Positions 46,528-49,613 of a DNA stretch of 64,000 nucleotides are shown piece after piece. This stretch comes from Myxococcales bacterium (GTDB taxonomy: Bacteria; Myxococcota_A; Polyangia; Polyangiales; Polyangiaceae). Each line of letters begins with the position of its first letter. The stretch's first letter is position 1. A program made the position numbers and the translations under genes. The DNA is taken from the NCBI GenBank assembly GCA_016794345.1, contig JAEUKE010000070.1:62001-126000 (forward strand). Reading direction: 5' to 3'. Under the pieces are notes generated by a model that was given only the letters and a program-made list of their open reading frames with translations, made no database searches and had not been told where the DNA came from.

Positions 46528-48306
46528 GTGAGCGGCAAGCCTCAAGCGGAGGAAAAAGCGTGGCAAGGGGAGCGCGGAGCGTTCCCCGCCGCCGCGCTCC
46601 CCGGCGCTGCGCTCCCCGATGAGAGGGACGACGCTCCCGAGAGCATCGTCCACTTGAAGCTCGGGGCGGCGCCGCCCAGCGCACCACCTCCGCCGCCCGC
46701 CCCGGGCGCCGCGGAGGCGCGTGTCGCCGAGAGCGACGCACGCGCCGCGGAGATCGTGCAGTCTCTCGAGGCCGAGCGCGCCCGCGTCTTCTTCCAGGCG
46801 GCCGGAATCGTCGCGGTGCTCGTCGTGCTCGCGTTGCCCATCCTCCCGGGGCCTCTCTGGCTCCGCGGCGTCACGGCGGCGACTTGCGCGGCGACCGCGA
46901 TCGTCTGCGCCAGCTTCTACGCGCGGAGCCGCACCCCCGCGAGGTACACCCCACGCGCGGCCCTCACCTCGGCGCTCCTCCTGTCGCCGCTCGCCACGGG
47001 CATCATCTATTACCTGGGGCTCTACTCGGCCTCGATGACCTTCCTGACGGTCGGCATCTATTTCTACGGGACGAGCCAGTCGCGCAAGGTCGCGTGGGGC
47101 GCCTACCTGACAATCGCCGCGATCTACTTCGTGGGCACGCTCGCGATCGCGATCGATCTCTTGCCGGACCTCGCCGTCTTCAGCGTGAGCCACGTGCCCA
47201 AGGCCTCGCGGCTCTACCGCGTGGTGATGCAGCAGGCGATCTTCGGGCTCATCTTCTACCTCGCGCGGCAGAGCCGCCGCGCCATGCAGGTGGCGCTCGA
47301 GCGGGCGAAGCAGAGCGACCTCGCGGCTGCCCAGAAGGAGGCCCAGCTGCTCGAGGCGCGCGGTGAGCTCGACCGCGCGTTGCGCCCGACCGACGGCCGC
47401 ATGACCGGGCAGGTCGTCGGCGAGTTCCGCATCGGGGATCTGCTCGGGCGCGGCGGCATGGGGGAGGTCTACGTCGGGACACACGTCGAGGCGGGCGACG
47501 AGGTCGCGATCAAGATCCTCCACCCTGCCCTCCTCGCGGACTCGAACAACGTCGACCGGTTCCTCCGCGAGGCGCGGGCGACCGCGGCCATCCCGAACGA
47601 GCACGCGCCGAAGCTGCTCGACGTGGGGTCTCTGCCGGACGGCAGCCCGTACCTCGTCCTCGAGCTCCTCGAGGGCCACGATCTCGCCTGGCACCTGCGT
47701 CGCTCGCCCGCGCTGCCGCTCGTCCAGGTCGTCGAGATGGTCGAGCACACGGCGCGGGCGCTCTCCGCCGTTCGCGAGGCCGGCGTCGTGCACCGCGACC
47801 TGAAGCCCGCCAACCTGTTCCTCACCGACACGTTGCCGCGCCGCTGGAAGGTCCTCGACTTCGGCCTCTCCAAGCTGCTCGGCGACGCGTCGCTGACGAA
47901 GGAGCACGCCGTCGGCACGCCGGCGTACATGTCTCCCGAGCAGATCCACGGCAAGAACGTCGACCACCTCGCGGACCTCTATGCGCTCGCGGCCATCGCC
48001 TACCGGACGGTCACCGGGCGCCCACCCTTCGTGGGTGACGAGATCCCCAAGGTGCTGATGGACGTGCTGACACGCATGCCGGAGTCGCCGAGCGCGTTCG
48101 TGAAGATCCCGGTGGAGGTCGAGCTGGTGCTCGCCATCGGCCTGGCGAAGCACAAGAAGAACCGCTTCGCGCGCGTGGAGGACCTCGCCAGCGCGCTCCG
48201 CCTGGCGTCGACCGGCGAGCTGGATCACGAGACCCGCGCGAAGGGCTGGGCGCTCTTGAAGCAGCACCCCTGGGGCAGCGCGGTCCGCGTGAGGATGGAT
48301 GACTAG
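46528..48306 (+). CDS. Ser/Thr kinase with N-terminal membrane domain
   Basis: GTG at 46528 follows a G-run. The 592-residue protein begins with a Pro/Ala-rich tail and six predicted membrane spans at about 87-245 (FFQAAGIVAVLVVLALPILP, ALLLSPLATGIIYYLGLY, MTFLTVGIYFYG, LTIAAIYFVGTLAIAI and others), then a short coiled segment and a C-terminal kinase domain (about 295-560): GRGGMGEVYVGTHVEAG, AIKILHP, HRDLKPANLFL, LDFGLSK and GTPAYMSPEQ. The usual bacterial order is kinase first, then membrane span; here it is reversed, with the membrane block possibly a sensor. Substrate unknown. Confidence 0.88.
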   Translation: MSGKPQAEEKAWQGERGAFPAAALPGAALPDERDDAPESIVHLKLGAAPPSAPPPPPAPGAAEARVAESDARAAEIVQSLEAERARVFFQAAGIVAVLVVLALPILPGPLWLRGVTAATCAATAIVCASFYARSRTPARYTPRAALTSALLLSPLATGIIYYLGLYSASMTFLTVGIYFYGTSQSRKVAWGAYLTIAAIYFVGTLAIAIDLLPDLAVFSVSHVPKASRLYRVVMQQAIFGLIFYLARQSRRAMQVALERAKQSDLAAAQKEAQLLEARGELDRALRPTDGRMTGQVVGEFRIGDLLGRGGMGEVYVGTHVEAGDEVAIKILHPALLADSNNVDRFLREARATAAIPNEHAPKLLDVGSLPDGSPYLVLELLEGHDLAWHLRRSPALPLVQVVEMVEHTARALSAVREAGVVHRDLKPANLFLTDTLPRRWKVLDFGLSKLLGDASLTKEHAVGTPAYMSPEQIHGKNVDHLADLYALAAIAYRTVTGRPPFVGDEIPKVLMDVLTRMPESPSAFVKIPVEVELVLAIGLAKHKKNRFARVEDLASALRLASTGELDHETRAKGWALLKQHPWGSAVRVRMDD

Positions 48307-48359
48307 GCGTTTGCTGAAGAAGGCGGCGTCGTTGTGCTGGATGAGGGAGGTGCTGCTCT

Positions 48360-48395
48360 TTCACCCCCCCGGCCCCCCTCGCTTCGCGAGGGGGG
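48360..48395. repeat. C/G-block palindromic repeat, copy 2
   Basis: TTCACCCCCCCGGCCCCCCT followed by a 10-bp perfect hairpin (CCCCCCTCGC, loop TTC, GCGAGGGGGG). It lies 53 bases after the kinase stop codon, and forms a pair with the inverted copy 32 bases further on. Confidence 0.7.
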
Positions 48396-48427
48396 TGCCA
48401 TCGAGAACAGATGCAAAATTCAACGGT

Positions 48428-48465
48428 CTCCCCCCACACGCAGGAGGGGGGCTTGGGGGGGTGAA
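48428..48465. repeat. C/G-block palindromic repeat, copy 3 (inverted)
   Basis: Reverse-oriented relative to copy 2: it ends CTTGGGGGGGTGAA, the complement of the family's TTCACCCCCCC start. The two together make an inverted doublet comparable in layout to paired REP units. Confidence 0.65.
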
Positions 48466-48516
48466 ATGGCGGCATATTCGATTCAGATCGGGAGGCGGCG
48501 ACTTTTTCAGCACCGG

Positions 48517-48663
48517 GCTAGTCCCGTGGAAACGGAGTTTCCACGCTGGAAGAAACGAGTCCCCTCCGGAACAAACCGCCACTTCGCCCGAGAATTCGGG
48601 CCGCCTTCGCCCCGTCAGGGGCGGCCCGAGTTCTTCAAGAAATGATGGTTCCAGGGGACTAGC
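48517..48663. ncRNA. Structured element, possible ncRNA or small palindromic mobile unit
   Basis: GCTAGTCCCGTGGAA (48517-48531) and TTCCAGGGGACTAGC (48649-48663) are inverted with 14 of 15 matches. Inside lie a perfect 8-bp hairpin GTGGAAAC/GTTTCCAC with a three-base loop (48526-48544), and a 14-bp stem with one mismatch at 48592-48605 and 48620-48633. The arms can also fold on themselves (CGGG...CCCG on the left, GGGAC...GTCCC on the right), so alternative folds are possible. No coding potential. Whether it is transcribed, is an enhancer region for the sigma-54 promoter 127 bases downstream, or is a transposon remnant cannot be decided here. Confidence 0.45.
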
Positions 48664-48789: not shown

Positions 48790-48806
48790 TGGCACGCGCC
48801 TTGCGG
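48790..48806 (+). promoter_or_regulatory. Sigma-54 (-24/-12) promoter
   Basis: TGGCACG, four bases, TTGC: an exact fit to the RpoN consensus TGGCACG-N4-TTGC. Initiation would fall near 48816, leaving a leader of about 24 bases with AAGGA before the UspA start at 48840. Confidence 0.8.
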
Positions 48807-48839: not shown

Positions 48840-49613
48840 ATGCAAACAATCGCCTTCGCCACAGGCCTCGGCTCGGACGAGCAGCCCGCCGTCGCCACCG
48901 CGGCAGCCCTCGCGGCTGCCACCGGCGCCAAGCTGTTCACCGTGCACGCGTCGACAGGCGCCCCGCCGGGCGCGATGCCTCGCGCGGACGAGACAGCGGC
49001 GAAGTGGGGACACCGGATCGACAACGAGCTCATGGTCCACTCCTGTTGCGACGATCCCGCGGACACGCTGCTCGACGCGCTCAGGCGCATCGCGCCGCAG
49101 CTCGTGGTGATGGGCACACACGGGCGGAGCGGGCTCGCGCAGATCTTCAACGAGAGCGTCGCGGAGTCGGTCGCTCGAAACGTGAAGGTCCCCACCCTCT
49201 TCGTTCCGCTCCACGGAGACGGCCTCGCCTCCGAGACTGGCGCGGTCAACCTGCAGCGCCTCGTCGTCCCCGCAGGGGACGCGGTGGCGACCAAGGCGGG
49301 GCTCGAGGCGGCGGCCTGGCTCGCGCGCACCTCCGGCTCCACCGACGTGGAGGTCGTGCTCCTCCACGTGGAGGACGGGACACCGATGCCTGCGCTCGAC
49401 GCCTTGCCGGAAGGGCTGCGCGTCACGCGCCGCACCGCGAAGGGGAAGGTCGAGGACGCCATCGTGGACCTAGCGGTCGGCTACGACGCGTGCGCAGTCG
49501 TCATGGCGACGCGCGGCCACAACGGCCTCGTCGACGCGCTGACCGGCTCCCACACCGAGCACGTGGTGCGCAAAGTCCGTTGCCCCGTGCTGAGCGTGCC
49601 CCTACCGGACTGA
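48840..49613 (+). CDS. Universal stress protein with two Usp domains
   Basis: The start at 48840 has AAGGA eight bases upstream and lies behind the sigma-54 promoter; an in-frame ATG at 48789 lies within that promoter and is unlikely. The 257 residues form two Usp domains. The first ends with VVMGTHGRSGLAQIFNESVAESV...VPTLFVP; the second with MATRGHNGLVDALTGSHTEHVV...CPVLSVP, whose GHNGLVDALTGS fits the ATP-binding motif G-2x-G-9x-G(S/T), whereas the first lacks the last glycine. Such proteins aid survival of starvation, oxygen limitation or redox stress. Sigma-54 control suggests regulation by an enhancer-binding protein, a common theme in myxobacterial development. Confidence 0.88.
   Translation: MQTIAFATGLGSDEQPAVATAAALAAATGAKLFTVHASTGAPPGAMPRADETAAKWGHRIDNELMVHSCCDDPADTLLDALRRIAPQLVVMGTHGRSGLAQIFNESVAESVARNVKVPTLFVPLHGDGLASETGAVNLQRLVVPAGDAVATKAGLEAAAWLARTSGSTDVEVVLLHVEDGTPMPALDALPEGLRVTRRTAKGKVEDAIVDLAVGYDACAVVMATRGHNGLVDALTGSHTEHVVRKVRCPVLSVPLPD

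Follow-up and report, generated by a model that had tools for sequence, protein, structure and literature searches.

A CTAG-bounded repeat with a conserved two-hairpin fold upstream of a universal stress protein gene in Polyangiaceae

Architecture of the element and its neighborhood

The window is a 64,000-nucleotide stretch of a Polyangiaceae MAG (9.66 Mb, 321 contigs; hereafter G000). The element lies between two genes on the + strand, a serine/threonine protein kinase gene at 46528-48306 (Pfam PF00069; stop codon TAG at 48304-48306) and uspA, a universal stress protein (Usp) gene at 48840-49613 (Pfam PF00582). A perfect sigma-54-like site, TGGCACGCGCCTTGC, stands ahead of uspA at 48790-48804 (+ strand), outside the element, and is the sole such site in the window. 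Directly upstream of the element is a second CTAG-bounded repeat of another family (48303-48521), which matches the genome at about 20 other places. It is about 210 bp long, its ends read CTAGCAGkkTGCTGAAAAAG, and its inner arms are C-rich and G-rich. The left CTAG of this repeat contains the stop codon of the kinase gene, and its right CTAG is also the left CTAG of the element (48518-48521). Adjacent copies of the element also have one CTAG in common.

When 14 full-length copies, whose flanks are unrelated, were aligned, the element was placed at 48518-48662, a length of 145 bp with both boundary CTAGs counted (right boundary, 48659-48662). The first-pass annotation had described inverted terminal arms, a perfect 8-bp hairpin and a 14-bp stem with one mismatch, and all three were recovered. 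The arms (48517-48531 and 48649-48663) are complementary at 14 of 15 positions (93%), the outermost G/C pair being flank rather than element in the aligned copies. The hairpin, GTGGAAAC-GGA-GTTTCCAC, occupies 48526-48544, and the stem pairs 48591-48605 with 48620-48634 at 14 of 15 positions. The surmise that such structure exceeds chance also held. The folding energy of the + strand was -72.3 kcal/mol, where dinucleotide shuffles gave -50.1 +/- 4.0 (z -5.5, 0 of 200), and the fold of the - strand was likewise below the shuffled expectation (z -5.2).

On the + strand, the strand that appears to fold, the element consists of two hairpins joined by a linker. Hairpin 1 is the 8-bp hairpin at 48526-48544. 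The A-rich linker (48545-48558) varies in sequence in alignments A1 and A4. Hairpin 2 (48559-48659) corresponds to helices 2-4 of alignment A4 and shows compensatory changes in other genera. Its outer stem pairs GTCCCCT with AGGGGAC and then GGAA-bulge-CC with GGTTCC, and encloses a long inner stem (48590-48635) whose apical CTTCGCCCCGTCAGGGG region recurs across genera. A short motif near the hairpins is common to both ends within a genome; it reads GGAAC in G000, and other genera have GTTTC or GGATC.

Across genera, conservation lies in the two inner hairpin arms, whereas pairing between the distant terminal arms is largely particular to the G000 copies. Elsewhere only about 5-7 bp of it are left (CTAGT.../...ACTAG), except in one G100 subfamily. 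The terminal inverted repeats expected of a MITE are present in the window copy, at 14 of 15 positions, and weaker in other genera, where mostly the short motif alone is found.

Copies and conservation of the fold

The first-pass annotation had suggested searching the genome for further copies and the relatives for covarying stems, and both checks came out in its favor. The element is not unique, and its stems do show compensatory changes in relatives. A sequence search of G000 returned 22 matches, which comprised the 14 full-length copies (84-100% identical) and fragments. The full-length copies align over 145 bp and end abruptly at CTAG or a decayed CTAG. The element is short, non-coding, multicopy and dispersed, as bacterial MITEs are. 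Two congener genomes gave no match to it, and none was found in viral contigs, plasmids or phages. Its orientation relative to neighboring genes followed no clear rule.

A genome of another genus, G100, holds about 20 copies of about 143-145 bp with the same architecture and a different sequence, and a second subfamily too. We built a covariance model (R2) from these two genera, G000 and G100, and ran it on 183 genomes of the order. The window copy matched model positions 1-145 with 175 bits. Full-length matches occurred in 11 of the 183 genomes, spread over eight genera that all belong to one family, with up to 16 copies per genome. G000 and G100 had 16 matches each, G031 had 14, G041 nine and G095 five; G099 and G101 had one each. 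Three matches in G054, two in G053 and single matches in G034 and G075 had divergent ends, so their membership is less certain. In the multicopy genomes, the ends of the matches were mostly CTAG...CTAG.

Conservation of the fold was examined in two alignments, A4, with its structure fixed from G000 and G100, and A5, which covers genera outside that structure definition. In neither are the copies of one genome independent of each other. Both were fitted by a covariance model that favors its own structure, so the pairing and covariation figures are upper estimates: 95.5% of cells were paired in A4, with two-sided changes at 17 pairs (5-9 in slid controls), and 88.8% in A5, with two-sided changes at 41 of 42 pairs and a score of 0.67 (0.06-0.13 when slid); even so, the margin over the controls was wide. 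Read in the same way, as upper estimates, paired cells reached 96.1% (A4) and 95.2% (A5) in hairpin 1, which also had two-sided changes, and 96.8% and 94.3% in the inner stem of hairpin 2, where 15 of 16 pairs had two-sided changes in A5. A two-hairpin fold has been kept on one strand although most letters have changed.

The departures from pairing were asymmetric. Among pairs with a Watson-Crick majority in each genome, the + strand carried G·T wobbles in 59 cells and A·C mismatches in 13. Counted by pair position, the numbers were 38 and 11, with the same direction in five of five genomes; the sign test gave p = 1.4e-4, a value that is approximate since the copies are related and not independent. 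Double-stranded DNA would be expected to show the two in equal numbers, and the excess of G·T therefore indicates that one strand folds. This is the + strand of the window, in the form of RNA or of single-stranded DNA, which the wobble test does not tell apart.

CTAG boundaries and neighboring stop codons

CTAG is scarce in the window, with nine occurrences observed against 173 expected from base composition, about 20-fold rarer. Among 48 copies from five genomes, it formed the left boundary in 32, the right boundary in 35 and both in 25. The 8 bp outside the boundaries of these copies gave no consensus. By a rough gene call, the TAG stop codon of a neighboring gene lay exactly inside the boundary CTAG at six left and five right edges. 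At one locus (L251), both convergent neighbors, a PEGA-like gene and a DnaJ gene, terminate in the two boundary CTAGs. CTAG is known as a 4-bp overlap of convergent stop codons (PMC2174442), and a single CTAG of this kind would be duplicated on insertion, which would place both stop codons in CTAGs. A duplicated 4-bp CTAG target is the simplest reading of the boundaries and the stop codons. An empty site for comparison was sought in the congeners and none was found; synteny is lost after the kinase gene, and the uspA neighborhood is not conserved.

Short tandem runs of CTAG were also seen at element boundaries at three loci (L278, upstream of 1217; L168; L285). They may be traces left by repeated insertion or excision.

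Mobilization and comparison with known systems

Multiple copies, sharp CTAG boundaries, unrelated flanks and absence from congeners support a small non-autonomous mobile unit, one of three identities offered by the first-pass annotation, and the mobile behavior of the element is well supported. We consider that the element is probably a member of a MITE-like family of non-autonomous mobile repeats, about 145 bp long, that rely on a transposase encoded elsewhere and directed at CTAG. This enzyme, acting in trans, would insert the element into the rare tetranucleotide CTAG and presumably duplicate these 4 bp, and genes ending in ...CTAG would thereby keep their TAG stop codons. Such insertion beside stop codons would explain how the element enters compact genomes without breaking genes. 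The mobilizing agent may be a DDE enzyme with IS1182-like targeting, and the folded strand would act as RNA or as single-stranded DNA. A DDE enzyme working on double-stranded DNA needs no strand-specific fold, which counts against this explanation.

An enzyme of this kind does exist in the same bacterial family, as judged from two IS1182-family elements (L189:502-2125 in G100 and L194:112-1914 in G060) that sit between CTAGs placed directly outside both inverted repeats. The inverted repeats match at 16 of 18 and 18 of 18 positions, respectively. The L189 transposase scores as IS1182, and that of L194 is 51% identical to it. At L194, an SDR-like gene appears, as read from the sequence, to have its stop codon in the left CTAG. 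These elements share CTAG insertion with the element; they differ in encoding a transposase and in their ends, GAGCGTGTAG / GAGCCTGTAG, which are unlike those of the element. Direct descent from IS1182 copies was rejected for the same dissimilarity between inverted repeats and element ends (GAGCsTGTAG vs TCCCsTGGAA). A search of G000 for a PF01609 or IS1182 transposase gave no match, no autonomous element with these paired ends was found in G000 or G100, and the end-only copies examined had no transposase domain alongside. MAGs often lose IS copies, and an autonomous partner may have dropped out of these fragmented assemblies.

The strand-specific wobble, the covarying stems with bulges and the motif common to the two hairpins would also fit a single-strand route. 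The element would then move as a folded DNA strand, and a Y1 HUH transposase of the IS200/IS605 or REP (RAYT) type would recognize one hairpin at the left end and the other at the right, cut the strand and target CTAG. Bulged hairpins are recognized by single-strand transposases, and GTAG is a feature of REPs (PMC8266576). G000 does have a single RAYT-like Y1 transposase gene (L133:5118-5948, contig C250), but this gene is flanked by another tandem repeat, of about 120 bp and with about 40 occurrences in the genome, and not by the element; mobilization by it was rejected on this ground. The presence of stop codons in CTAGs on the right as well as on the left is also more in keeping with symmetrical duplication than with targeting on one side, and we regard this route as unlikely. 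A combination of hairpin-recognizing and DDE-type features, in which a folded single strand of RNA or DNA is required for movement and the 4-bp CTAG duplication is nonetheless symmetrical, is conceivable but doubtful. Constraint on one strand only makes it testable whether bacterial MITE-like repeats are kept for an RNA function or for single-strand steps of transposition.

The same asymmetry of the G·U type, the strong covariation and the apical sequence recurring across genera could instead reflect a structured non-coding RNA, a 3'-UTR element or small RNA with a cellular function that spread as a repeat, mobility being secondary. The small RNA put forward by the first-pass annotation gained covarying stems and strand-specific wobble, but no Rfam family was matched at the gathering score and no T-tract follows the copies in G000. 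The copies also lie beside unrelated genes in both orientations and are absent from the congeners, and this reading seems improbable. The remaining proposal, an upstream enhancer with NtrC-type activator sites for the uspA sigma-54 promoter, draws on the sigma-54-like site 128 bp downstream of the element. It did not survive comparison of the copies: only three of 43 had a sigma-54-like site within 500 bp, the flanking genes vary by copy, and the repeat is dispersed and the same in kind beside unrelated genes. We consider an enhancer extremely improbable.

The element would give myxobacteria a family of small, structured repeats that are mobile, insert at a defined sequence, CTAG, which is scarce in G000, and have a fold that survives deep sequence change. 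Several known families resemble it in part. GTAG REPs, REPINs and BIMEs with RAYT (PMC3733652, PMC8266576) are likewise palindromic repeats with strand-specific hairpins and a tetranucleotide ending in TAG, often the stop codon of a neighbor. However, a REP measures 20-40 bp and has its GTAG at a single end of the hairpin, whereas the element measures 145 bp and has two arms and CTAG on both sides; it lacks a 20-40-nt hairpin based on GTAG, and the RAYT gene of G000 is flanked by a different repeat. The CerM-associated intergenic repeats (CIR) of Caulobacter and Brucella (PMC2229807) are small dispersed repeats with two hairpin arms and a linker in the proposed transcript, and are conserved across genera, as is the element. 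CIR differ in having GANTC in the terminal loop and no described CTAG target, which the element has at both ends. The MITEs ERIC, Correia (NEMIS) and RUP (PMC2229807) share with the element a length of about 100-200 bp, terminal repeats, dispersal, a general lack of protein genes and highly base-paired transcripts. Their termini are TA and they mostly form a stem from end pairing, in contrast to the CTAG and two separate arms of the element. IS630-Spn1 is the presumed mobilizer of RUP, acting in trans (PMC2229807).
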